Positions 1 to 63,565 of a stretch of DNA of 64,000 nucleotides are shown piece by piece. A program made the position numbers and the translations under genes. Every line of letters starts with the position of its first letter. Positions within the stretch are counted from its first letter, which is position 1. The notes under the pieces were generated by a model, which had not been told where the DNA came from, made no database searches, and saw only the letters and a program-made list of their open reading frames with translations. Source of the stretch: Calvatia gigantea (lineage: Eukaryota; Basidiomycota; Agaricomycetes; Agaricales; Lycoperdaceae); assembly GCA_025093985.1 (NCBI GenBank), contig JACAAK010000005.1, positions 1-64,000 on the forward strand, read 5' to 3'.

Positions 1-354
1 TCCAGACTTCAGGCGTTGCAATTAAGTAAATATCCCTGACAAGTTATTCGTTAAGGACAAGGATCCGTGTCAGGTTAGGGTAGGGGGTGAAGGGTTGGTA
101 GGTTTTGGGTTGGGGAAGGGTTAGTTGGTTGATCAGGAGCTAGTCGTGTAAGCACCTAACCCCTAACCCCTAACCCTAACCCCTAACCCTAACCCCTAAC
201 CCCTAACCCCTAACCCCTAACCCTAACCCTAACCCCTAACCCCCTAACCCCCTAACCCCTGAACCAGCGGACGTCCTTGTCCTTAAATCAGAATATAACT
301 TGTCATGGGATTTATTTAACGTTCAAACGTTGGCAGACAGCCTGAAGTCTGGAT
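1..354. repeat. Inverted duplication flanking a head-to-head telomere-like array
   Basis: Bases 1 to about 75, reverse-complemented, align with about 262-354. Both share a block reading CCTTGTCCTTAA, then ATAACTTGTCA, then CCTGAAGTCTGGA, with scattered mismatches and indels. Between the arms lie degenerate G-rich telomere-like repeats (about 75-125, TTAGGG-like) followed by C-rich repeats (about 150-262, mixed CCCTAA and CCCCTAA). The order G-rich then C-rich on one strand is that of two chromosome ends joined head to head. The arms have clearly diverged, so the event is not recent, or two related but different subtelomeres were joined. Confidence 0.7.
150..262 (-). repeat. Telomere-like repeat array (TTAGGGG/TTAGGG mixture)
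   Basis: About 16 units of CCCTAA, CCCCTAA and CCCCCTAA in direct tandem; read on the minus strand these are TTAGGG and TTAGGGG. The mixed unit length is visible directly. Short pieces of the same repeat recur at 1382-1410, 18213-18236, 61322-61352 and about 61890-61905, in several cases at the edge of the ribozyme-bearing element. Confidence 0.85.
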
Positions 355-755
355 GGATAGTGGCATTACGCACATTATCCTTCGGTAATACCCCGGAGAA
401 ATCAGAACTCTCCGCGGAAATACTCGCAACCAAGCCGGAACTTACTGAAACTCGTCGGGGAGGGCGATTACATTGGGGTGGTGAAGATCCGCTTTGGCGG
501 GTTGACGCTCATTCTAGTGTAGTTGCTAAGTCTCTGGTGGGCAGAGGTGAGTATCTACGCCTGGATAAACTTGGACTTCTTGATCGGCGGTTGATCGTCA
601 GTAAGCGACGAACGAAACAACTTATTGATCTCGCTGCTTCTTGGCGGCGGGCTGTCTTAGAAAGACGTGATCTAGGTAGTTTTCCAGATCTCAATAGAGA
701 TCAACGTACTGACTTGCGTCAGACTACCTTGGATGGTTGGTTAGCTGAAGCTTGA
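300..755 (+). CDS. Hypothetical ORF, 151 aa, end of a repeated element
   Basis: An open frame starting just inside the telomere-like array. I do not recognise the protein. It is rich in Arg, Leu and Asp, with no visible membrane segment. The last 26 codons (from about 676) recur at 60616-60694 with the same stop codon and mostly silent or single-residue changes, so this may be the C-terminal end of a longer element-encoded protein that is truncated here. The start near 303 is only the first ATG after the repeats; the real N-terminus could lie elsewhere. Confidence 0.3.
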   Translation: MSWDLFNVQTLADSLKSGWIVALRTLSFGNTPEKSELSAEILATKPELTETRRGGRLHWGGEDPLWRVDAHSSVVAKSLVGRGEYLRLDKLGLLDRRLIVSKRRTKQLIDLAASWRRAVLERRDLGSFPDLNRDQRTDLRQTTLDGWLAEA

Positions 756-1381
756 GCTTCACTAGTACCTCTTGTCCGCGGGCGTTCTTTTAGACGCCTG
801 GCGAAAACTTCTTCTGAATTCTCGGTCGAAACGAAATCCCAGTTACGATTCTGGGTGACTTCGGTCTAATCAAAAATCTCCTGACCCGACGGGGCCTTCT
901 GGCTCCAACTCCTTTGATACCTGGCATGCCTTCGAGTATGCGATGCGAGTAGTGATCCACTACGCAGTGTGCGTTACGCCAAGCATGTCAGGTTGGACTC
1001 ATCTTAGGTAAAGTGCGCTTTCTATGGGCGCGTGAGCGGGATAGATACGTTGGGCAACCTATATTGACGTTCACACAACCAATATGAAGGGAGTCTAGAC
1101 CTAATGCTTAACCTGGTGTGGCAGGTAATAGGCAGGATGAAGGAATGAAGCCAGTAGTCAGTGTCGTTTGAGAGTTCGTACTGTGGCTTGACGAACGTGT
1201 TCTTGAGTGAACGCTTTTACCAGTAGTTATACGCCGGGGAGGTGATGGCCCCGGTCGGGATAGTGAAAGACCAACAACATCGCATTGGATCACCAACGTT
1301 TTCCTTGCAGGTGTGCCATATGGAACACTTTGCGGTAAGTACATCCGTGTACGCAATCTTGGACTACTACTAATACGTAGG
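676..1381 (+). repeat. Structured repeated segment, copy 1 (copy 2 at 60614-61320)
   Basis: This 0.7 kb block is almost identical to 60614-61320, with differences mostly C/T or G/A. It is full of short hairpins. At 676-729 an outer stem GGTAGT/ACTACC encloses a GATCTC/GAGATC hairpin and a CTGAC/GTCAG hairpin, giving a cloverleaf-like layout. Next come TGAAGCT/AGCTTCA, then GGCGT/ACGCC, CCCAG/CTGGG and GTAGTG/CACTAC. It ends in a short telomere-like stretch. The ORFs in it (for example minus 1108-1356) are short, and I do not believe they are coding. It may be a non-coding structured RNA region of a retroelement. Confidence 0.55.
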
Positions 1382-1399
1382 AACCCCCTAACCCCTAAC

Positions 1400-1935
1400 C
1401 TCCCCTAACAATGGTGAGTGGAACCGGCCTTGTCTCGTGATGCGCAGGCTGATAGATGGACTAAGGGATTGTCCGAGCTGGACTGTTGCGTATATAACCT
1501 GCCACGGTATGTACCCCGCCTTCAGTTGTCAAGCTGATGACATCGTTAGGTACTTGGTACGTTCATCTCATTATTTCAGTAATGTTCGTATTTAAGTGCG
1601 TGGGCGCTTAATGGGCGCCCCGCATATGGGCGCTACACGGGCGCTTAAGTACAAGTTTTTCCTTTACTTTTCTTTCCTGACGATAAATTAAGCGCCCACA
1701 AGCGCTTGATTTTATGGGCGCTTTTTAAGCGCTCGCTGACATTTATCAGCTGTTCCATGGATCGAGCTATTTACGCTCGTCCCCAATAATAACGCGAACG
1801 ATCGCGTTCTATTGGTCTGGTAGGTACTGATGGATAATCAGAGCGCCTGATGAGTCTGTCATAAGACGAAACAGGTGGCTGGGGTAGCTCCCCAGCCTGT
1901 TGCGCTGTCTCCTCCATCGGACAACTCAACGGTTT
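1400..1935 (+). repeat. Hammerhead-bearing repeat unit, tandem copy 1
   Basis: The unit starts near AATGGTGAGTGGAACCGG and ends with CAACTCAACGGTTTTTAGG plus a short AT-poor tail. It contains a structured stretch of GGCGCT/AGCGCC-type inverted repeats (about 1600-1735) and then the hammerhead ribozyme. The next copy follows immediately, so the two ribozyme cleavage sites are 549 nt apart. Copies at 61352-61885 and, partial, at 63185-63565 show C-to-T and G-to-A decay. Confidence 0.8.
1829..1918 (+). ncRNA. Type I hammerhead ribozyme, copy 1 (intact core)
   Basis: All conserved parts are present in order. The outer stem I strand GATGGA is at 1829-1834 and the inner strand AGCGC at 1842-1846. 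The core CTGATGA is at 1847-1853. Stem II GTCT/AGAC (1854-1857 with 1864-1867) closes a GTCATA loop. The core GAAA is at 1868-1871. Stem III pairs ACAG with CTGT and extends through GCTGGGG/CCCCAGC with a short loop. The cleavage triplet is GTT (1899-1901). Stem I closes with GCGCT (1902-1906) and TCCATC (1913-1918). Stem I is open-ended, which makes it type I. The predicted cut is between 1901 and 1902. Activity is inferred from the motif, not tested. Confidence 0.9.
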
Positions 1936-1948
1936 TTAGGTATCACCT

Positions 1949-2497
1949 CCTCTCCTAACAATAGTGAGTGGAACCGGCCTTGTCTCGTGATGCGCAGGCT
2001 GATAGATGGACTAAGGGACTGTCCGAGCTGGACTGTTGCGTAAATAACCTGCCACGGTATGTACCCCGCCTTCAGTTGTCAAGCTGATGACATCGTTAGG
2101 TACTTGGTACGTTCATTTTATTATTTCAAGAATGTTCGTATTTAAGTGCGTGGGCGCTTAATGGGCGCCCCGCATTTGGGCGCTACGCGGGCGCTTAAGT
2201 ACAAGTTTTCCTTACTTTGTATTTTCCTGACGATAACTTAAGCGCCCACAAGCGCTAAGTTCTTGGGCGCTATTTTAGCGCTCGTTGACATTTGTCAACT
2301 GTTCCATGGATCGAGTTAATTATACTCATCCCCAAGTATAGCGCGATCGTACGCGTTCTATTGGTTTGGTAGGTACTGATGGATAATCAGAGCACCTGAT
2401 GAGTCTGTCATAAGACGAAACAGGTGGCTGGGGTAGCTCCCCAGCCTGTTGCGCTGTCTCTTCCATCGGACAACTCAACGGTTTTTAGGAATCACCT
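1949..2497 (+). repeat. Hammerhead-bearing repeat unit, tandem copy 2
   Basis: Direct tandem copy of 1400-1935, including the inverted-repeat stretch and the ribozyme. Its 3' end at about 2497 abuts a truncated LTR retroelement. The tandem dimer arrangement, with one ribozyme per unit, is that expected for a source of unit-length RNA with self-cleaved ends. Confidence 0.8.
2378..2467 (+). ncRNA. Type I hammerhead ribozyme, copy 2 (core intact, one stem I mismatch)
   Basis: Same architecture as the upstream copy: CTGATGA at 2396-2402, stem II GTCT/AGAC, GAAA, stem III with the GCTGGGG/CCCCAGC extension, and predicted cleavage after 2450. The inner stem I strand reads AGCAC opposite GCGCT, so one G-C pair is now A-C. 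The catalytic core is unchanged. It is probably weaker than copy 1 but could still be active. Confidence 0.85.
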
Positions 2498-3779
2498 CCT
2501 ATCCGTAGAAAGAGTAAAGCGGAGGTCGAATAGACGTGGAAGGGGTAAAGCGTTGAAGCCTGAAGCAAAGGAACGAACGGCGGACTTCTCAAAGATATTT
2601 TCTATATCCCAGCTTTATTTAATTAAGCGGGCCTTAGCGGCTTATAGCTGCCAGCTTAAGTGGGTCAAATAGCTCAGGTATATGCTCGTGGTGTGTTATT
2701 CTACTCAAGGCGGGACTTGCCCAGTCGTCTTGAAACACAAGAACACAAGACTTATAATTTGCCTGACACTGCGGTATTTATTGCGGTCACAAAGACCAGC
2801 TAATTTACCAGCAAAGCGGAGTGTAATGCTCAGCGTAGATGATACATCATATAGTAAATTACTGAGGTGGATCTGAAGAGAATCCCAAAAAGCCCAAAGC
2901 GTTGTCGTCGATCAGAGAGGATACCAGAACAGAGGTGGAGCAACCAGAGCGGAACAGTTCTGCTACAACCCAGAATGGGGAGCGGACCTAGAGCGGTCGA
3001 ACCAGACCGGAGATGACGGTTTGCCAGATCAAAAACCAAGAACGGGTAACAACGTGTCAGCATCATGTAGGACTGCTGTGCGTAGTGCACGCGTTCACAA
3101 CATGGGTCAGACAGGGTATCAAGTGGACCAAAGGCACCACTGTCTCCCAGGTTGAAAGCGACCGTAGCCTCCTCAAACTCTACCAGCGTTGCTAACGCGG
3201 TCCGAGTGAGCGGCGGTCGGGGCCCATAACCTGTTGAGAGAACGAGTAGACATCCCAATATAAGTTCACACTACCTTAGCGTGTAGGCGTCAGCGGTGGA
3301 GGGTAGTCGTATTCATCCGGGAGACGGTCCAGTAGGAGAGATGCATGGTAGCGGACATAGTCCTGCTTATACCAGCGTACTCAGAGAGTCTTGAGGAGAA
3401 GGGAAGCGATGCTTAAAGAAGCTTAGCGTAGAGGATAGAAGACATATAGTCTTACGCCAAAGGGCGTATCCAAAGGGATTACATACAGGGAATCTACATA
3501 GGTATTATATACTAATAGTCCCTGGTCTGTGCACTCTTAAACCCTTATACGGGTGAGGTCTAACTACCAGTAGCATAATGTGAGCATACTGTGCACGTCC
3601 GCATGTACTAGAAGGTTCCATGCGTAGTATCTACCTGCTACCTATAGTGCGGTGTAACTACGTGCGTAGTCCATCAATAGATGTCCGTTATTATCGACCC
3701 TCTGAAGGTGAAATACTCGAACCCCGTTTCAGCTATAAATAGACTGAACCAACGTAGTGGTACGGAGCGAGATTCAACA
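2498..3779 (-). mobile_element. Truncated LTR retroelement (one LTR plus about 0.74 kb of internal region)
   Basis: This is the reverse complement of about 44196-45480. The LTR (minus strand, about 3779 to 3240) starts TGTTGAATCTCGC and ends CTCTCAACA, as in the complete element, but has more indels and substitutions, so it belongs to an older subfamily or insertion. Internal sequence follows down to 2498, where it breaks against the ribozyme-bearing repeat. No second LTR is present. Confidence 0.8.
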
Positions 3780-6700
3780 GTGCACACTGATTCGTCCAAG
3801 ACGAATGGGTGTGCATCAGACCTCACTAGACCGTGAGAAAATTAGAGTGGTGCACATACCAATCCGTCCAAGACGAATCTGTGTGCATAAGTTTCCAGAA
3901 CATTGAATAAAGAATAACAATGGAATAACTCCACCAAAAATGATCAGATCCACTCCGTCTTTTTTTTATCTTGTTCGGATTTGCAGAGGCTTTCTATCGA
4001 CTCCAGATACGGGCCGATACGTTCCTTTGTTGCGGCACTATTTCAAAGACCCACATTTCTAATGATACTGCTACAACTCACTTGATATTGAAGCGATCAT
4101 TTCGGTCTAAATGTCGTTGGATAGTACTCATTTAACGGATTCTAACGAGTCCAGATACATTATATTCCGATAAGTCCTTGTGCCTCTACTCCATTCCTAA
4201 TCTTTCCTATAAAATATATAATGTATTCTATAACAATTCAACCAGTCCACGTATTGACTCGGTCTCTTTCAGAGATTGATTCATATAGCAGCTGCATTTC
4301 ATTATGGTATTGGGGATCTCATTTCAATGCTTATATATCATGCTAACCCCTGCATGTTGCACACTTTCCACTGACATACTCAACAGTTTTGTTTTCACAT
4401 CCCACCATATAATTAATGTCCCCAATGCTTCATTGGAGAGTGGCTATAAATCCGAAGTCAATACCTGCAGACATTAAAGAGCTATTGAATATTTTGTCTA
4501 CCTAGGTGGAAATACTCTGAAGACAGTAGAAAACCAACGCATCATTGTAATATAATGTGCCGGGCATCGTTGGAATCGGTTTAATGAGTACTATTTAATG
4601 GCGGTCAGATTATACAGAACGCTTCAGTATCTGAGAATTTATAACACTATCTTTTATAATGATACTATGTAAGGTGGCGCAAGGGGTATTGAACGTATCA
4701 ACCCGCTTTTGGACTCGTTGGAAAGCATTTTTAGACCCGAGCAAATTAAAAAAAGACCGCACCAATCCGGTCATTTTCCATGAAGTTATTGCTGTATCTT
4801 TCTAAATTCACTTCTCTATGCTGCCAGAAATTGTTCTTGACAATCAAATTCCTGGTACTATAGTATACCTATAGTGAACCTCATATCATGGATTGGTTGA
4901 ACATCATATTTTAGTACTAGTGAGCCCCTTGTACAATAGGAGATTTGTGGCATGCACTGTCCCCACAATATCCCAGCAGAATAGTAATACATCATCCAAA
5001 TGTAATGTATTGGGGCTCGTTAGAATCACCTGAATGAGTACTATTTAATGGTAGTTAGACCGCAAAGAATGGTCCAGTGTCTAAATAGATATAACACTAT
5101 CTGTTATGATAATAGTATGTGAAATAGCGCAGCAAATACTGAACGTACCAGCCCGGTTTTAGGCTCGTTGGAAAGGGCTTTGGCATTGGAGCTATTTAAG
5201 AAAAAGACGGCATTGATCCGTTCATTTTCTATGGAGTTATTGCTGTATCTTCGTATATTGAATTATCTATACTCATCAGAGTAGCATCCCCAATACCTGG
5301 TTAAAATGCGGCTGCATTTCCGATGGATTCACAAAAAGGACAGAGCCAATAGCTGCAGCCACTGAATTGCTATATAATATTTTGTACATTTTATAGAAAA
5401 TACTGGGAATAGAACAGAAGGTGAATGCCTGACCGGAATATAATATATTTATGGTCGTTGAAATCCACTCAATGAGGACTATCCAACGCACTTTAGACCG
5501 TGGTGATGGCCTCAATAGTGATTGAGTTATAATATCATGATTGAAAGTGGATATTTTTGGCATAGCATCAGAACTACGGAGCGTATCGGCCCGCATTTTG
5601 GTGCGTTCGAAAGCTGCTAGAAATCCGAACAATTCAAAAAAAAAGAGCAAGTGAATCCATCGAGTTTGTGTGAAGTTATTTCCTTATCATTGTTTGATTA
5701 GTGTTCTGGGGATTCATTCACAGACTCGTCTTGGACGAATTGGTGTGTGCACCACTCTAATTTTCTCACAGTCCAGTGAGGTCTGATGCACATCCATTCG
5801 TCTTGGACGAATGGGCGTGCACCAGTCCAATATTGCCACTGTGAACTGGACTTGGTACACATTCATTCATCCAAGATGAATGTGTGTGAACCACTCCAGT
5901 ATTTCCATAATGAATTGAGGTACCAATGCACACACATTCGTCTTGGACGAATGGTGTGGACCACTCCAATATTCCCACACTCAATTAGTCACTGTCAGTA
6001 ATTGCTGAGCCAGTACTGGGTGCCACTGCAATCCAATCATCATGTATTATACCTCGTTAGAATTGCCTCAGTGAGCTCTGTCCAACGATACCAAGACCGT
6101 AGTAATCTACCCACTTGTTGGCATAATAATTCAACATCTCTGATAAAGGCCAGCTCCATAATATGACATATAGCCATCAGAGTAACATCCTCAATACTCC
6201 GTTAAAATGCGACTGCATTTCCCGTCAATCCACAAAAAAGACTGAGTCAATAGCTGCAGCCATTGAATTGCTATAGAATACTTTGTCCATTTCATAGAAA
6301 TACTAGGAATTAAATAGAAGCTCAATGCCTGATTGGAATATAATTAATTTATACTCATTGAAATCCACTCAACGAGTACTATCCAACGCACTTCAGACTG
6401 TAGTGATTGGCTCAATACTCATTGAATTATAGGATGATCATTAAAAATGCAGGTTTTTGACATAGCACTACAAATACTGAGCGTATCGGCCCGTATATTG
6501 GTGTGTTGGAAACTGGCTAAGAATCCGAAAAGTTCAAAAAAAAGACCAAGTCAATCGGTCCAGTTCTCGTGAGGTTATTTCATTATCATTCTAGAATTAG
6601 TGTTCTGGAGATATGCATGTGGATTCGTCCAAGACGAATTGATGTGTGCACCAGTCAAATATTCCCACAGTAGTTAGCTGAGGTCTGATGCCCACTGATT

Positions 6701-10349: not shown

Positions 10350-10700
10350 GTCCATTCCCCCATCCCCAGTCTGTTCTCTACCCATTTCTCCTCATCCCCC
10401 TCCTCATCCCCTCCTTATTCTTACTCATCCCCTATGAGCCTGCCCACCTCCAGCCTGTCCCCAGCTGTCCCCTGCCCATTCCCTATCCATTCCCTGTCCA
10501 TTTCCTGCCCATTCCCTGCCCACCCCCAGCCTGTCCCCAGCTGTCCCCAGCCCATTCCCTGCCCACCCCTACTCATTCCCTGCCCATCCCCTGCCCACCC
10601 CTACTCATCTCCAGCCCATCCCCTGCCCACCCCTACTCATCCCCTGCCTATCCCCTTCCAATAATTTTTGACCCCTATGACCCCTAATGTCCAACTCACC
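10350..10700 (+). repeat. C-rich minisatellite (CCCTGCCCATTC-like units)
   Basis: Irregular short tandem units of the type CCCATCCCCTGCC and CTGTCCCCAGCC. It ends in GACCCCTAATGTCCAACTCACCTAG, which is shared with the copy ending near 63178. The Pro/Ser-rich ORFs across it are translation artefacts. It joins directly to the 3' side of the RPA1-like gene. Confidence 0.85.
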
Positions 10701-25640: not shown

Positions 25641-27150
25641 TAGGGTGTAGGGGAACGCCGCCGATCACTGACCGGGCACCAGAGCTCTTATGTTGGTGCC
25701 CCTAAGGCTAGGACGAATGGACTATGTTCCCATGGGCCGCGTGCTCTCCTTCTGGACACGCAGAGATTCACAGCGAACGAGTGGACTGCGTGTTCAAGTG
25801 CTGAATGCGTGCCAATTCGTCCGGGACGAATAAACTGCAGGTTCACAACCAGATTTCGATAGATGCCCATTCCGAGATGAACGAATTGCGCGTTCGCGCC
25901 TTGAATACATACCCCAATTTTTGCGCCGCTTTTGCTACTTTCCATTCCTATTCACGCAAAAATCCTCCAAAACTTAAGGCTGGGTGAAAGTGGCCCATAT
26001 TTATTTCCACTAAGGGTATGCGTAGGAATACGCGCAATGGTTGGGGGGATACCTCCAGTTTAATCCCACTAGTCTAGTTAACCCACCCCCCGTCTTAGAC
26101 AAACATATGTGCAGGACCATCACAAGACCGTACAACCACCATTTATCCTGGAAGAATTGTGTTTGCTGCTCCATGGCTGCACAATCACCGGTCATCTTGG
26201 ACAAATGACAATATCTCAAGCATGACTTTGCAATAATGGTTCTTCCTGAATGAATTGTGTTTGTTCACATGTGGCTTCCAGGGTGAACAGTGATAGTCGT
26301 CGCCACAGGACATCCCAGACCACACACCCAAGCCCAACAAGGAGAAGATCACAAGCAAAAATATGAGAACTTTACGTGAGCAGACATAGATGGCCTTCTC
26401 AAAACCCAGATGCTGAAAACAGTGAACTGAAATGTGGATGTTCGTCCATGACAAAAACCATGAGCACACACTCCACTCATCTGGGAGAACGGCTGCGCTA
26501 TGCTCATTGATAGACATAGAGATCTCATGACTCTGAGATCTCATGACTCCGCCAAGCAACCTGCTTTTACGTTTTGTGAGGACGGCTGCACATGTGGGTA
26601 TGAAGAGGATTAAGAAATATATTGCGGATGCTTATCATTTGTCCTGGATGAATGGGTGCATATTCAATACATGAACACATGACCCATTCATCCTGGACGA
26701 ATTAGCGCATATCCAAGTATGAGCGTGGGCACACAGTCGGTGCATATCCAAGTCCGAGTGCGGACATGCAGCCCATTCGTCCATGATGAACAGGTGAATA
26801 CCCAATACATGAACATGCAGTCTACTCGTCCAGGACGAATAGGTGCATATTCAACTGCGAACACATGACTCATTCGTCCAGGACGAATTGGTGCATATCC
26901 AGGGCACAAACATGCAGTCCATTTGTCCTGGGCAAATGGGTGTATATTCAATACATGACCACATGACCCATTCGTCTATGATAAACAGGTGCATATTCAA
27001 CATGCGAACATGTAGTCCATTCGTCGAGGATGAATGAGTGTGTATTCAACACGCCAACACACAGCCCATTCGTCTAAGACGATTGAGTGAGGTGGCGGTG
27101 CAATCCATTCATCTAGAATAAACAAACGTGAGTATGGGACTGGGCTGCAG
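25640..27150. repeat. Palindrome minisatellite, ~57-bp period at 26640-27090
   Basis: Units of the form CCATTCGTCC-N-GGACGAATGG, then GTGCATATTCAA, then a CATGAACACATG-like spacer repeat about eight to ten times between 26640 and 27090, with looser copies from 25700. Many units keep both arms complementary. The translated ORFs are not genes. Confidence 0.8.
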
Positions 27151-30039: not shown

Positions 30040-31160
30040 CATTGGTGTACTACTTTCGTCCGAGACGAAACGTGCGCATACCATTTGTATGCATGCAGGC
30101 TTCTAACATATTCCGTTCTCACAAGATAATAACACTTTTGTCTGGGACGAATTTGTGTAGTAAGAGAAGCCTTGATTCGTGCCATGCATCCGATGCAAAT
30201 GAAGCAACTCCTGACACGCTGCATTCGTCTGGGACAAGGGTATGTGTCCACGGATTTCCTGGATAAACCCTGCTCTGTGTTGCAGTGTGGCCGATCAGTG
30301 TACAATGTGAGCAGGTTAATCTTGCTTGTTTCCTCCCCCCTTGGAGCTCAACCCACCCCCCGTTCTGTTTGTTCCCATATGTACATTAATTGCGAGACAA
30401 TACGATTGGTTTTTGCTCAGCTACCAGTCCAGCAGAACTCATACGCAAGAGGATCCTCACCATTCGTCCCCGACAAAGGGTTTTGTGGTAGAAGTCCACA
30501 TATAGCACTGACATACGCAAGTGCCTGGCCTTCATCCCAGTGCTTTCATGCACTCGCACGGGTGCATAGCATTCCTCGCAGACAATACCGTGGTGTATGG
30601 GGCCCCTCCTGAGTCTACAACATTCGTCCAGGACGAAAACATTGCGTCGGTCCTCTCCTGAATGCATAGCATTCGTCCTGGACGAAAATATTGTGTCAGG
30701 CTCTCCTGAATCCACAACATTCATCCGGGATGAAAACGTTGCATCGGCCCTCTCCTGAATGCATAGCATTCGTCCTGGACGAAAATATTGTGTCAGGCTC
30801 TCCTGAATCCACAACATTCGTCCAAGACGAATATGTTCAGTGCTGGTCCTCTCCTGAATGCCCAGCATTCGTCCTAGATGAAAATATTGTGTCAGGCTCT
30901 CCTGAATCCATAACATTCGTCCAGGACGAATGCGCTGTGTGATATCTATTAGTTAAAAAATATAAAAAATATGGAAAACCTAATAAATCAGTTAATACTC
31001 ACCCGAACCTACAGCATTCATCCCGGATGAAAACATTGTGTGCCAGGCTCTCCTGAACCCACAACATTCATCAAGAATGAATGCATTGCGCATCGGGCCT
31101 CTCCTGAATCCACAGCATTCATCCAGGACGAAAACCTTGTTTATTGAGCCTCTCTTTAAT
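30040..31160. repeat. Palindrome minisatellite, ~59-bp period
   Basis: Units alternate between GGACGAAAATATTGTGTC and ACATTCGTCC forms, with CTCTCCTGAATGCATAGC or CTCTCCTGAATCCACAAC spacers, about ten copies at 30600-31150. The palindrome core is the same as in the left satellite but the spacers are unrelated. Confidence 0.8.
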
Positions 31161-45116: not shown

Positions 45117-45600
45117 TTTACTATATGATGTATCATCTATGCTGAGCATTACGCTCCGCTTTGCTGGTAAATTAGCTGGTCTTAGTGACCGCAATAATAC
45201 CGCAGTGTCAGGAAAATTATAAGTCTTGTGTTCTTGTGTTTCAAGTCGATTGGGCAAGTCCCGCCTTGAGTAGAATAACACACCACGAGCATACATATAA
45301 CTGAGCTATTTGACCCACTTAAGCTGGCAGCTATAAGCCGCTAAGGCCCGCTTAATCAAATAAAGCTGGGATATAGAAAATATCTTTGAGAAGTCCGCTG
45401 TTTGTTCCTTCACTTCAGGCTTCAACGCTTTACCCCTTCCATGTCTATTTGACTACCACTTTATTCTTTCTATGGATAGCTCATGCGCTTTAAGCACTTT
45501 ATGCCAAGCTAAGGCAGTGGGCCACCGCATTTGCAGCGCTTACGTTGGTATGGTAGACAGCGGCCGCAAGGCTAGCAGCACCAATAAAACCATGGCATTA

Positions 45601-47205
45601 CAGTAAGGGACAAAACCGTTCCAATGTTTTGAACTTCTCAGAAGATCAGCTCATATCTCAAGGACTACTGTGGCTGTGCACTTCCTAATTTAATTGTAGA
45701 TAGTCCAGTATCTTATCTAATCATATGCAAAGTATGATTATGTAATCCTTTGTTTTAGGGGAGTTATTAATTAATTAATATTTTAAGTGCATTGGAACAG
45801 TTTTGTCCCTCTTGAAATTTATATACAAAATGGGTATTCTAGTACCTGGTATAAGCTCCCTTGGCCTGTAAAACTGCCTGGACCCTCCTAGGCATACTCT
45901 CTATCAGATTCTGACACACTTCTGGTTCTATGTCATCCCACTCCTTTTGTATCCTCTCCCATAGGGTATTCATGCTATCAGGAGGAGTATCATACTCTCC
46001 CAGCTTATTCTTGAGGTGAGTCCGGAGATGTTCAATGGGATTAAGGTCTGGAGACTGTGGGGGCCATACCATAACCTCCAATTCAGACTCATCTAGCCAG
46101 TTTGTAGCCTTTTTGCTCTTGTGTTTGGGGTCATTGTCCTGTTGGAAGACCATATCCTCCTCATTCTTCCCATACCACCTGATGCTCCTCTTTAGTTCAT
46201 CCCCCAAAATTTGAACATAAAGGTCAGCATCCATCTTCCCTTCAATTTTAGTGGCAAACCCCACTCCATCCCACAGCATACAACCCCAGATCATCACATT
46301 TCCTCCACCAAACTTGACTGTTCCCTCAACCAATCTATCATTCAGCCCCTCTCCTGCCTTTTTCCATACCCAAACCCTTCCATCTGATCCAAACCGATTG
46401 ATTTTGGACTCATCTGTCCAAATAACCCTCTTCCAGTCCTCCAGGGTCCAGTTAACATGTGCTTCTGCCCACTCCAACCTTTTCCTCCTATGGACAGCAG
46501 TAAGTTTAGGTCGTTTCTGCTTGACTACAGCCTTCATTCCAGCTCCTCTGAGTGCCCTGCGCACTGTTTTGGTGGATACAGGCTGGGCAATAACATTTTG
46601 AAGTGATTTGGTGACTTGGGAGGCATTGTCAGCCTTGCGAGAGGTGATGAGGCGAACAGAATAGTGGATATCAGAGGGAGAAAGTTTAGATGGGCGGCCA
46701 CCAACAGATTTGGAAAGTGTTGATCTATGTTTGGAGCGAATCCTAGAAATAGTACTGACTCCCAGACCAGTAATAGAAGCAATATGATGAGCAGATTTCC
46801 CTTGGTCCAGGTAAGAGAGGACTCTATTGGTCTGAGTAGAGGAAAGAGAGCGCATATAGTTGTAAAGGTATAGTGGGGGAGTTAATTTGCACCTGAGAAT
46901 AAGCACATCCATTTATACATCACCCTACATGGTCACATGATTTTATTTGTATTTATTTGATTGCAATAAACGAAGTCATGTGCTCAGAATTTGAGAGGGA
47001 CAAAACTGTTCCAATGTACTTAAAATATTAATTAATTAATAACTCCCCCAAAACAAAGGATTACATAATCATACTTTGCATATGATTAGATAAGATACTG
47101 GACTATCTACAATTAAATTAGGAAGTGCACAGCCACAGTAGTCCTTGAGTTATGAGCTGATCTTCTGAAAAGTTCAAAACATTGGAACGGTTTTGTCCCT
47201 TACTG
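45601..47205 (-). mobile_element. Tc1/mariner transposon nested in the LTR element
   Basis: 1605 bp, flanked by TA (45599-45600 and 47206-47207). Terminal inverted repeats are about 212 bp (45601-45812 and 46994-47205), starting CAGTAAGGGACAAAACC, with only a few mismatches. Each terminal repeat itself begins and ends with inverted copies of GGGACAAAAC(C/T)GTTCCAATG, an IR/DR-like arrangement giving four putative transposase sites. Confidence 0.95.
45839..46855 (-). CDS. Tc1/mariner transposase (DD34E), apparently intact
   Basis: An uninterrupted frame. I take the start at 46855 (MRSLSSTQTNR), because the preceding codons from 46912 encode a non-conserved hydrophobic stretch; 338 aa is the usual family size. 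The N-terminal paired-like helix-turn-helix includes LDQGKSAHHIASITGLGVST and a GRPS AT-hook-like link. The catalytic acidic residues are in WTDES, QQDNDPKH and SPDLNPIEH, with 34 residues between the second Asp and the Glu. It cuts and pastes DNA at TA sites. Intact motifs plus near-identical terminal repeats suggest recent activity. Confidence 0.95.
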   Translation of the reverse strand: MRSLSSTQTNRVLSYLDQGKSAHHIASITGLGVSTISRIRSKHRSTLSKSVGGRPSKLSPSDIHYSVRLITSRKADNASQVTKSLQNVIAQPVSTKTVRRALRGAGMKAVVKQKRPKLTAVHRRKRLEWAEAHVNWTLEDWKRVIWTDESKINRFGSDGRVWVWKKAGEGLNDRLVEGTVKFGGGNVMIWGCMLWDGVGFATKIEGKMDADLYVQILGDELKRSIRWYGKNEEDMVFQQDNDPKHKSKKATNWLDESELEVMVWPPQSPDLNPIEHLRTHLKNKLGEYDTPPDSMNTLWERIQKEWDDIEPEVCQNLIESMPRRVQAVLQAKGAYTRY

Positions 47206-60419: not shown

Positions 60420-60560
60420 CTCAGTCCATCTCCTGTCTATCCCCTGGTCTATCCCCTGGTCTATCCCTGCCCATCCCCTGCCTATCCCCTGTCCATCCTC
60501 TGGTCTATCCCTGCCCATCCCCTGCCTATCCCCTGTCCATCCCCTGGTCCATCCCCTAGT
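60420..60560 (+). repeat. C-rich minisatellite
   Basis: CCATCCCCTGCCTATCCCCTG-like units (broken here to stay short), related to 10350-10700. Confidence 0.75.
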
Positions 60561-60613: not shown

Positions 60614-61320
60614 AAGGTAGTTTTCCAGATCTCAACAGAGATCAATGTACTGATTTGCGTCAGACTACCTTGGATGGTTGGTTAGCTGAAGCTTGAGCTT
60701 CACTAGTACCTCTTGTCCACGGGCGTTCTTTTAGACGCCTGGCGAAAACTTCTTCTGAATTCTCAGTCGAAACGAAATCCCAGTTACGATTCTGGGTGAC
60801 TTCGGTCTAACCAAAAATCTCCCGACCCGACGGGGCCTTCTGGCTCCAACTCCTTTGATACCTGGCATGCCTTCGAGTATGCGATGCGAGTAGTGATCCA
60901 CTACACAGTGTGCGTTACACCAAGCATGTCAGGTTGGACTCATCTTAGGTAAAGTGCGCTTTCTATGGGCGCGTGAGCAGGATAGATACGTTGGGCAACC
61001 TATATTGATGTTCACACAACCAATATGAAGGGAGTCTAGACCTAATGCTTAACCTGGTGTGGCAGGTAATAGGCAGGATGAAGGAATGAAGCCAGTAGTC
61101 AGTGTCGTTTGAGAGTTCGTACTGTGGCCTGACGAACGTGTTCTTGAGTGAACACTTTTACCAGTAGTTATACGCCGGGGAGGTGATGGCCCCGGTCGGG
61201 ATAACAAACGACCAACAACATCGCATTGGATCACCAACGTTTTCCTTGCAGGTGTGCCAAATGGAACACTTTGCGGTAAGTACATCCGTGTACGCAATCT
61301 TGGACTACTACTAATACGTA
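60614..61320 (+). repeat. Structured repeated segment, copy 2
   Basis: Near-identical to 676-1381, same orientation, starting abruptly at GGTAGTTTTCC. The hairpins are kept, one with a G-T pair replacing G-C. Confidence 0.85.
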
Positions 61321-61351
61321 GGAACCCCCTAACCCCTAACCTCCCCTAACA

Positions 61352-61885
61352 ATGGTGAGTGGAACCGGCCTTGTCTCGTGATGTGCAGGCTGATAGATGG
61401 ACTAAGGGATTGTCTGAGCTGGACTGTTGCGTAAATAACCTGCCACGGTATGTACCCCACCTTCAGTTGTCAAGCTGATGACATCGTTAGGTACTTGGTA
61501 TGTTCATTTTGTTATTTCAAGAATGTTCGTATTTAAGTGTATGGGCGCTTAATGGGCGCCCCGCATTTGGGTGCTACGCGGGCACTTAAGTACAAGTTTT
61601 CCTTACTTTACATTTTCCTGACGATAACTTAAGTGCCCACAAGCACTAAGTTCTTGGGCGCTATTTTAGCACTCGTTGACATTTGTCAACTGTTCCATGG
61701 ATCGAGTTAATTATACTCATCCCCAAGTATAGCGCGATCGTACGCATTCTATTGGTTTGGTAGGTACTGATGGATAATCAGAGTGTCTGATGAGTCTGTC
61801 ATAAGACAAAACAGGTGGCTGGGGTAGCTCCCCAGCCTGTTGCGCTGTCTCCTCCATCGGACAACTCAACGGTTTTTAAGAATCA
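61352..61885 (+). repeat. Hammerhead-bearing repeat unit, copy 3
   Basis: Copy of 1400-1935 with multiple GC-to-AT transitions. The preceding bases (61322-61352) are telomere-like. Confidence 0.8.
61769..61858 (+). ncRNA. Hammerhead ribozyme, copy 3 (core mutated)
   Basis: CTGATGA is kept, but GAAA reads AAAA (first G lost) and the inner stem I reads AGTGT against GCGCT. Probably inactive. Confidence 0.75.
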
Positions 61886-61904
61886 CCTTCTCCCCCCTAA
61901 CCCC

Positions 61905-63178
61905 TCCAGTATTCCCATAATGAATTGAGGTACCAATGCACACACATTTGTCCAAGATGAATGGTCTGCACTATCCCAATTTTTCCCACACTCAATCAGT
62001 CAATGTCAACAATTGCTGAGCCAGTACTGGTAGCCCCTGCAATCCAATCACCATGTATTATACCTCGTTAGAACCGCCTCAGAGAGCTCTTTCCAATGGT
62101 ATTGAGACCGTAGAAATTCGCCTACTCTCTGCCATAATATTTTAGCATTTCTTTAATAACAAGGTGGCTCCACAGCACTCCAGGTAGTTATTGAAGCAAC
62201 ATCCCCAGTATCTCATTGGAGGCTGCCTGTAAATTTAATTAAGCTACAAAAGGGACCGAGTAATTATCTGCAGCCGTTGTATTGTTATAGAATTATGTGT
62301 CTATTTTGTGGTAAATACTATGAATACAGTAGAAATACAGAGCCGGAATGAAATATAATGTATTTGGGCTTGTTGGAATTAGCTCAATGAGTACTATTCA
62401 ACGGAATTTAGACCGAAATGATCGCTTTAGTATCCAGTGAGTTATACCAATAACACCATAAATGCGAGTTTTTGAAATAGTGCTGCAATGAATGAACATA
62501 TTGGCCTGTATCTGGAGTCGCTGAAAAGCCACTGTCAATCCGAACAAAATAAAAAAAAGTATGAGTAGATCTGCTCATTTTTGGTGGAGTTATTCCAGTA
62601 TCATTCTATATTTAATGTTCTGAGGACTCATGCACACCAATTCATCCAAGATGAATTGGTGTGCACCACTCTGATTTTCCCACAGTTGGCTGAGGTGTGA
62701 TGGACATCCATTTGTCTTGGACAAATGGGTGTGCACAACTCCAATATCACCCCCAGTCCATTCCCCCATCCCCAGTCTGTTCTCTACCCATTTCTCCTCA
62801 TCCCCCTCCTCATCCCCTATGAGCCTGCCCACCTCCAGCCTGTCCCCAGCTGTCCCCTGCCCATTCCCTATCCATTCCCTGTCCATTTCCTGCCCATTCC
62901 CTGCCCACCCCTAGCCTGTCCCCAGCTGTCTCCTGCCCATTTCCTGTCCATTCCCTGTCCATTCCATGCCCATTCCCTGCCCACCCCCAGCCTGTCCCCA
63001 GCTGTCCCCAGCCCATTCCCTGCCCATTTCCTGCCCACCCCTACTCATTCCCTGCCCATCCCCTGCCCACCCCTACTCATCTCCAGCCCATCCCCTGCCC
63101 ACCCCTACTCATCCCCTGCCTATCCCCTTCCAATAATTTTTGACCCCTATGACCCCTAATGTCCAACTCACCTAGATA
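61905..63178 (+). repeat. Duplicate of 9480-10710 (satellite unit plus minisatellite)
   Basis: Same order and orientation as at the left side, ending with the same CCAACTCACCTAGATAAC. Differences are a few transitions, small indels and a different number of C-rich units. The Pro/Ser-rich ORFs in it are artefacts. Confidence 0.85.
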
Positions 63179-63184
63179 ACATAT

Positions 63185-63565
63185 AACATGTAACATGTAT
63201 TCATGTGCGTGGGCACTTAATGGGCGCCCTGCATTTGGGCACTATGCGGGCGCTTAAGTACAAGTTTTTTCCTTTATTTTTCTTTCCTGATGATAATTTA
63301 AGCACCCACAAGCGCTTGAATTTCTGGGTGCTTTTTAAGTGCTCACTGACATTTATCAGCTGTTCCATGGATCGAGCTATTTACACTCGTCCCCAATAAT
63401 AACGCAAACACTCGCATTCTATTGGTTTGGTAGGTACTGATGGATAATCAGAGCACCTCATGAGTCTGTCATAACACAAAACAGGTGGCTGGGGTAGCTC
63501 CCCAGCCTGTTGCACTGTCTCCTCCATCAGACAACTCAACGGTTTTTTAGATCACCTTCTTACTC
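63185..63565 (+). repeat. Hammerhead-bearing repeat unit, copy 4 (5'-truncated)
   Basis: Begins inside the unit at GTGGGCACTTAATGGGCG and continues to its normal 3' end. Strong GC-to-AT decay. Confidence 0.75.
63439..63538 (+). ncRNA. Hammerhead ribozyme, copy 4 (degenerate)
   Basis: The core reads CTCATGA and AAAA, and stem II is broken (GTCT against ACAC). Certainly inactive if the motif rules hold. Confidence 0.7.

Follow-up and report, generated by a model that had tools for sequence, protein, structure and literature searches.

Fungal Penelope-like elements (PLEs) reportedly carry variants of the hammerhead ribozyme that are active as monomers. As far as the accessible parts of the sources cited here and below go, hammerheads are in print for the pseudo-long terminal repeats (pseudo-LTRs) of PLEs (PMC7761336) and for the 3' ends of the telomeric Terminons (PMC6431247), PLEs of Agaricus bisporus are closely linked to telomeres (PMC7473861), and the role of the hammerhead in PLEs was called unknown in a 2020 review (PMC7761336). 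The element considered here lies near the left end of a 64-kb stretch of the 46-Mb Calvatia gigantea genome (contig JACAAK010000005.1, positions 1 to 64,000; hereafter the window). It belongs to this known kind, since hammerheads of PLEs and Terminons and telomere-linked Agaricus PLEs have already been described; what is unusual is its clear insertion record. With a probability of about 0.84, the 549-nt repeats in the window are the pseudo-LTRs of a telomere-associated PLE, bear predicted hammerheads, and were likely added serially by a telomerase-like reverse transcriptase (RT). The exact element was not found in a literature search, and no claim of first description is made.

Two cores (CTGATGAGTCTGTCATAAGACGAAAC, of the form CTGATGA...GAAA) begin at 1847 and at 2396, a distance of exactly 549 nt, each inside one of two direct repeats, 1399-1948 (550 nt) and 1949-2497 (549 nt), as the initial annotation had described; a unit search gives copies at 86-100% identity (best 40 of 56 candidates scored). 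Under the invariant positions and cleavage-site rules that we take to hold for hammerheads, these two copies fit a type I hammerhead with an inner stem I GCGC/GCGC, an outer stem I GATGG/CCATC, a stem II GTCT/AGAC, and a stem III formed by ACAGG/CCTGT and CTGGGG/CCCCAG with a 3-nt bulge, and the cut is predicted after GUU, at 1901 and 2450. The claim that both copies have all three stems holds for the first (1847), in which the invariant core and all helices are complete, but not for the second (2396), which has a C·A mismatch in the inner stem I (GCAC/GCGC). Likewise, the telomere-like stretches placed at the unit borders are clear at 1384-1409, but between the two units there is merely CCTCTCCTAAC. 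The absence of an RT, from which a non-autonomous element had been concluded, does not stand: an uninterrupted 1269-aa RT open reading frame (ORF) lies between such repeats elsewhere in the genome, and the 3' end of this ORF is present in the window at 258-755.

The coding element is seen in full on contig C56 (L031), in the order two units, the 1269-aa ORF (P0001, likely from its first ATG and uninterrupted), 3' untranslated region (UTR), two further units, and the start of the next ORF. It measures ~5 kb and has one long ORF. The unit precedes the ORF, recurs behind the 3' UTR, and forms tandem arrays, as pseudo-LTRs of PLEs do. In the window, 258-1412 matches the ORF end and 3' UTR at 98.4% identity, which makes unit 1 the 3' pseudo-LTR of an element truncated at its 5' end. 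A genome search with P0001 lists 39 matches, four of them uninterrupted over the whole query (best 37 of 51 candidates scored), and 296 proteins match it at E up to 0.001, the best organism-named ones being from Agaricus and Leucoagaricus. For a phosphatidylserine decarboxylase exon, the closest match that carries an organism name is also from Leucoagaricus, and the host is accordingly likely to be a mushroom-forming basidiomycete. A structure model of residues 560-1269 is closest to telomerase RT; that a fold is missing from the VIA list does not show that it is absent. No GIY-YIG nuclease is found in P0001 and the 17 relatives scanned (E up to 0.01), and PF01541 in the genome is confined to contigs without listed element copies. 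By eye, a segment of the ORF at about L031:4508-4580 (GTACGT...CCACCAG) has the look of a short intron; if it were spliced, the reading frame would close early, within a basic and glycine-rich tail, and the first protein would be shorter.

The insertion record was read from 67 unit 3' ends, which are all matches of an anchor pattern in the scanned stretches, not in the whole genome (L046, L047, and L051 were included and gave none; L048, L049, L056, and L057 lie outside the scan). In all 67, the sense strand runs from the contig end towards the centre, and the farthest lies 92.5 kb from a contig end, all thus within 93 kb. Five run on into an ORF, and the other 62 are insertion ends, 59 of which break 7-18 nt after TTTTAG, in or beside ACCTCCTCCCC, with three breaking earlier by the same measure. 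These 3' ends are fixed, mostly 45-56 nt beyond the predicted cleavage site, and the 5' ends are ragged: among 67 aligned copies, 25 start at nt 1, 6 at nt 6, and 36 are scattered from 23 to 488, a few of these starts being contig edges or interruptions by other repeats. Sorted by pattern, the DNA adjoining the 62 insertion ends consists of telomeric repeats (13), a 5'-complete leader (6), a 5'-truncated unit (14), or other sequence (29), such that telomeric sequence or the telomere-like leader adjoins 19 of them. Subtelomeric position, a 3' end facing the centromere, and telomeric repeats at junctions are the marks of telomere-associated endonuclease-deficient PLEs, all found here, and the initial suggestion of a telomere-associated PLE with hammerheads in its terminal repeats is supported.

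Thirty-three leaders are known, 31 by pattern and two that differ by one base (one more pattern match is due to chance). Nineteen are linked to a 3' UTR; all of these retain a 52-nt GTGAGT...CTAAG segment, and the leader CCCCCTAACCCCTAACCTCCCCTAACAATG is identical in 17 of the 19 units and differs by one base in the other two. Among the 14 leaders without such a link, three miss exactly the 52-nt segment, and all three stand before an ORF. Spliced leaders are therefore found in three of four ORF-linked cases versus 0 of 29 others (Fisher P 0.0007), and the segment appears to be an intron removed from the element RNA. If copied to its end, the telomere-like leader would leave GTTAGGGG.

The history of the window pair can be read in the same manner. 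Unit 2 retains its leader (CTAACAATAG) and ends at 2497, and is thus taken to be a solo unit with a complete 5' end. Its neighbour is the inner part of a dispersed repeat, for which 44 matches including itself are listed on both strands (best 40 of 560 candidates scored); in none of the 39 other listed loci is the repeat interrupted at the point matching 2498 (best 40 of 130 candidates scored). The missing distal part is not on the far side of the units, where the Penelope-like element is found instead. The simplest reading is that unit 2 was added to a broken end within the dispersed repeat. The end of unit 1 (CACCTCCTC) directly adjoins the leader of unit 2, and the "dimer" most likely represents two successive end-additions rather than a retrozyme: in a first step, copy 2 would have been added onto the broken repeat, and in a second, a longer element truncated inside its ORF would have been added to the leader of copy 2, with copy 1 as its 3' pseudo-LTR.

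With respect to the hammerhead itself, the short core pattern gives three matches in the window versus 2.1 expected and is no evidence by itself. The fuller pattern CTGATGAGN{5,20}CGAAAC has 48 matches in the genome, of which 46 belong to the pseudo-LTR unit family; the reversed control has 6. When up to 4 substitutions were allowed in the collected stretches of DNA, 58 cores were found, of which 41 have the full catalytic core, 32 have every helix as well, and 17 are broken; the invariant core plus three helices that characterize a type I hammerhead are therefore present in copy 1 and complete in 32 of the 58. In 44 distinct sequences, 95.8% of cells pair in the hammerhead helices, and both sides have changed in 4 of 19 pairs (14 cells), a figure that shuffles reach in 15 of 500 cases for pairs and 0 of 500 for cells; slid controls give at most one doubly changed pair, and further pair types in this alignment do not exceed shuffles. 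Within the young family only, covariation is weak, with 2 of 19 pairs doubly changed (matched by 382 of 500 shuffles) and 10 doubly changed cells (reached in 0 of 500). It is strengthened from 2/19 to 4/19 pairs by adding two diverged sequences, in one of which A-U replaces a stem I G-C. L056:266-361 has an intact core, a stem I pair changed on both sides, and a stem III capped by a GAAA loop, and L057:148-244 (minus strand) has lost G12; both suggest an older related subfamily. No hammerhead is found, including by Rfam, in the diverged elements at C5 and C3:2191905 or in the stretches C3:2227400-2229400 and C1:2450-3881 (L046-L049, L051), and viral contigs contain neither a relative of the P0001 protein nor an exact hammerhead core.

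A covariance-model search, named in the initial annotation as a check on its hammerheads, with the lack of a hit as one of two refuting results, finds no Rfam hammerhead model above threshold in the window or the genome: the gathering scores are 34 bits for RF00163 and 48.5 for RF00008, and the best window matches, both to RF00008, reach 21.0 and 21.2 bits. Minimum free energy does not give the hammerhead either, being -46.3 versus -41.0 kcal/mol with the hammerhead enforced for copy 1, -46.6 versus -36.2 kcal/mol for copy 2, and -35.2 versus -26.8 for L056, and neither RNAalifold nor ViennaRNA favours the hammerhead fold. An intact core is found in all 5 ORF-linked copies and in 15 of the 16 UTR-linked ones versus 21 of 37 others (P 0.002), an excess that age alone could explain. 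As for the blind genome search with RF00008 (type III; E up to 10), 47 matches are listed (best 68 of 8828 candidates scored), none above the Rfam cut-off, with a best score of 26.1 bits and a best E-value of 0.05; the RF00163 search lists no unit of this family (best 73 of 7314 candidates scored). Because none passes the cut-off and 7 of 14 control genomes also have sub-threshold RF00008 matches, the score alone proves nothing. The evidence is in which loci get picked: 45 of the 47 are pseudo-LTR units, and the other two are diverged relatives (C3:2226163 and C12:4142647), one with an intact core just upstream of a diverged RT fragment and one with a broken core 4.5 kb from a contig end.

What the predicted hammerhead does is constrained by the insertion ends, all 62 of which lie 3' of the predicted cut and none at it. 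By tally, the cut site is contained in 60 of the 62 inserts, whose template RNAs were therefore uncut there. In addition, seven copies form one broken-core lineage (ACACAAA; four also CTCATGA) with seven different 3' flanks; self-cleavage in cis is thus not required. Since no insertion end falls at the cut and hammerhead-dead copies have moved, cleavage is probably late, gated, or dispensable, and a late, gated, or auxiliary role fits best. A competing helix, in which CRCCUG (stem I end and core start) pairs with CAGGUG, pairs in 97.0% of cells, all changes being one-sided, and may act as a mask over the core. It is possible, albeit doubtful, that the core has ceased to be a ribozyme altogether, and that the long stem III hairpin with the C-rich stretch is what remains in use, as a signal for RT binding and priming. 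Stem III pairs are indeed kept in 98.9-100% of cells while 17 of 58 cores are broken, the masking helix is well paired, and dead-core lineages went on inserting. However, decay alone could account for this contrast, given that CpG is absent from intact stem III but present in part of stem I and at G12. In addition, the core is intact in 20 of the 21 coding-linked copies, a diverged relative has both an intact core and a stem I pair changed on both sides, and the masking helix lacks double changes. Variation in the hammerhead is 0.231 at CpG sites versus 0.033 at non-CpG sites. Changes at CpG (GCGC to GCAC or GTGC, ACGAAA to ACAAAA) are frequent in decayed units, for example at window 61787 and 63457, and are consistent with repeat methylation.

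Very unlikely is a retrozyme-like non-autonomous element, whose tandem units would be co-transcribed, self-cut into 549-nt RNAs, circularised, and inserted by a foreign RT. One hammerhead per unit in direct tandem at 549-nt spacing would suit it, as would the existence of full-length solo units and of two short fragments (C7:412771, C3:4429) that start some 6-13 nt after the predicted cut, the latter being silent on cleavage. However, the unit serves as pseudo-LTR in a coding element, solo units run from the leader to the fixed C-rich site and are not bounded by the cleavage site, the 5' starts nearest to unit nt 503 among the 67 aligned copies are at 484-488, and members of tandem pairs differ in history (UTR-linked beside 5'-complete or truncated). 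A self-cleaved 549-nt RNA from the dimer, as suggested in the initial annotation, is not supported as the mobile form, with 0 of 62 insertion ends at the predicted cleavage site and no aligned copy beginning there, and two successive insertions account for the pair better than a single dimeric transcription unit. An ordinary satellite spread by recombination between chromosome ends, with a hammerhead-like core inherited by chance, is similarly improbable: subtelomeres do exchange segments, and all mapped copies are subtelomeric and similar, but there are several marks of retrotransposition, in that 3' ends are fixed and 5' ends ragged, some junctions carry telomeric repeats, one GT...AG segment has been lost exactly, and the same unit has an RT ORF without interruption, and the 48 to 6 excess of the core pattern argues against chance.

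For serial addition of a telomere-associated PLE, the following route is proposed. A free 3' chromosome end, either a telomeric G-overhang or a broken end, would pair with the C-rich ACCUCCUCCCC, which adjoins the hammerhead where pseudo-LTR and ORF meet, and the RT would copy upward from this internal site. Copying that reaches the 5' leader of the RNA (CCCCUAACAAUG) would create a new end with GTTAGGGG, a potential seed for telomerase or the next insertion. The hammerhead fold, masked or gated by the RT, would cut late, in RNA trimming or release, or would mainly present the priming site. A more speculative and rather unlikely extension regards the PLE as a chromosome-end repair element, in which the RT joins hammerhead-tipped RNA to broken or short ends, even within non-telomeric repeats, the leader leaves the GTTAGGGG seed, complete insertions re-cap the end, and the hammerhead is a switch masked by the competing helix until the RT passes. 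The sequence of events can be read from the contig ends, which hold many similar copies that were inserted separately: it includes the points where copying and the RNA start, the splicing, and the uncut hammerhead. Natural intact and dead versions of one predicted hammerhead on otherwise similar units render its role directly testable. The family may link retroelements to chromosome-end repair in fungi.

Table 1. Coordinates of the element copies, predicted hammerheads, and adjoining sequences in the window
Feature	Position	Strand	Remarks
Telomeric repeats CCCTAA/CCCCTAA	155..265		16 copies of 7 nt near left contig end, fused to 5'-truncated element
3' end of Penelope-like ORF with stop, 5'-truncated	258..755	+	98% to P0001 residues 1105-1269
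Element 3' UTR	756..1380	+	258-1412 has 98.4% identity to L031 across 1155 nt
Telomere-like leader CCCCCTAACCCCTAACCTCCCCTAACAATG at 3' UTR/unit border	1384..1413	+	
Unit 1, 3' pseudo-LTR of 5'-truncated element	1399..1948	+	
52-nt GTGAGT...CTAAG segment, putative intron	1414..1465	+	Exactly missing in 5' pseudo-LTR of 3 ORF-linked copies
Predicted hammerhead 1, intact	1843..1905	+	Predicted cleavage between 1901 and 1902
Hammerhead 1, stem I	1843-1846/1902-1905		
Hammerhead 1, core	1847-1853		
Hammerhead 1, stem II	1854-1857/1864-1867		
Hammerhead 1, GAAA	1868-1871		
Hammerhead 1, stem III	1871-1875/1896-1900 and 1879-1884/1890-1895		
C-rich insertion end of unit 1 (CACCTCCTC)	1944..1952	+	Abuts 5' leader of unit 2
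Unit 2, 5'-complete solo pseudo-LTR	1949..2497	+	Leader CCTCTCCTAACAATAG
Predicted hammerhead 2	2392..2454	+	Layout as hammerhead 1, one C·A mismatch; predicted cleavage between 2450 and 2451
Dispersed repeat interior	2498..3740	+	Distal part missing at 2498
Second 5'-truncated element	60615..61353	+	Last 26 codons and 3' UTR
Unit linked to the 60615..61353 3' UTR	61340..61888	+	Hammerhead broken (GAAA to AAAA); CCCCCCTAACCCC after insertion end
5'-truncated unit	63197..63557	+	Hammerhead dead (CTCATGA...ACACAAA)

Other sequences adjoin or accompany these units. Window 1-124 matches the reverse complement of 203-353 at 72% with telomeric repeats in between, and 1-353 is probably a noisy fold-back of the contig's own end, an assembly artefact. 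Three further kinds of upstream flank were considered as non-autonomous partners sharing the unit and rejected; because they also abut 5'-truncated units at varying points, they are read as later insertions. Units are repeatedly joined, often just before AGG, by a flank that terminates in a GTGCAGCGCTAGCGCTGCAC hairpin plus AACTAATGTAGTT and that we take to be helitron-like (L035, L037, L040, L043, L052, L053). Minisatellites of the TCCCCTGCCCA type are found at window 62824-63128, 10439-10656, and 60424-60557 and in L023, L009, and L028; several end in CACCTAGATAACC beside hammerhead units, which suggests another sequence with a telomere-directed end. An element at 45598-46912 (minus strand), named by eye as encoding a Tc1/mariner-like transposase, has dozens of listed matches at ~100% identity (630 candidates) and has probably been active recently. 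Palindromes of the ATTCGTCC...GGACGAAT type are also numerous, either in tandem or dispersed, at about 3780-3890, 5710-5960, 26764-27089, and 30606-31154 of the window.

Compared with known systems, retrozymes are alike in having a hammerhead in repeated ends, but they are non-autonomous and move through circular RNA (PMC7761336, PMC6155905). Here, the unit is part of a coding element and inserts end off the cleavage site, unlike a non-coding element whose mobile RNA has both ends set by hammerhead cleavage. The minimal type I hammerheads reviewed for PLEs share the same kind of core in pseudo-LTRs but usually lack helix III (PMC7761336), for which 5 + 6 pairs are predicted here. The Penelope/Poseidon element of the anole also has a pseudo-LTR with a hammerhead, starts reverse transcription inside the RNA near the pseudo-LTR/ORF junction, and inserts independently of cleavage, its hammerhead cleaving only with protein (PMC11167929). 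It differs in possessing its own GIY-YIG endonuclease, which cuts AT-rich DNA, and in that the hammerhead overlaps the ORF start and the start site is within the ORF (PMC11167929).

Four features were not encountered in the accessible parts of the literature surveyed: a spliced leader of telomere-like sequence at the 5' border, a start site behind the hammerhead that is C-rich and not telomeric, continued movement of lineages with a dead hammerhead, and direct joining to a broken repeat. Priority is claimed for none of them. The Terminons of bdelloid rotifers resemble the element in that a hammerhead lies directly before the 3' end that meets chromosome-end DNA, and also in the endonuclease-deficient PLE RT, 5' truncation by telomeric repeats, and head-to-tail arrays (PMC6431247). 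In Terminons, however, reverse-complement telomeric repeats follow the 3' hammerhead, the place taken here by ACCTCCTCCCC; they are giant and have accessory ORFs, whereas this element is about 5 kb with one long ORF, and it carries telomere-like sequence at the 5' border of its pseudo-LTR, unlike Terminons (PMC6431247). The telomere-associated endonuclease-deficient PLEs (Gladyshev & Arkhipova 2007) agree with the element in their telomerase-like RT without a detected GIY-YIG domain, as well as in lying near contig ends with the 3' end inward, in 5' truncation, and in head-to-tail arrays.
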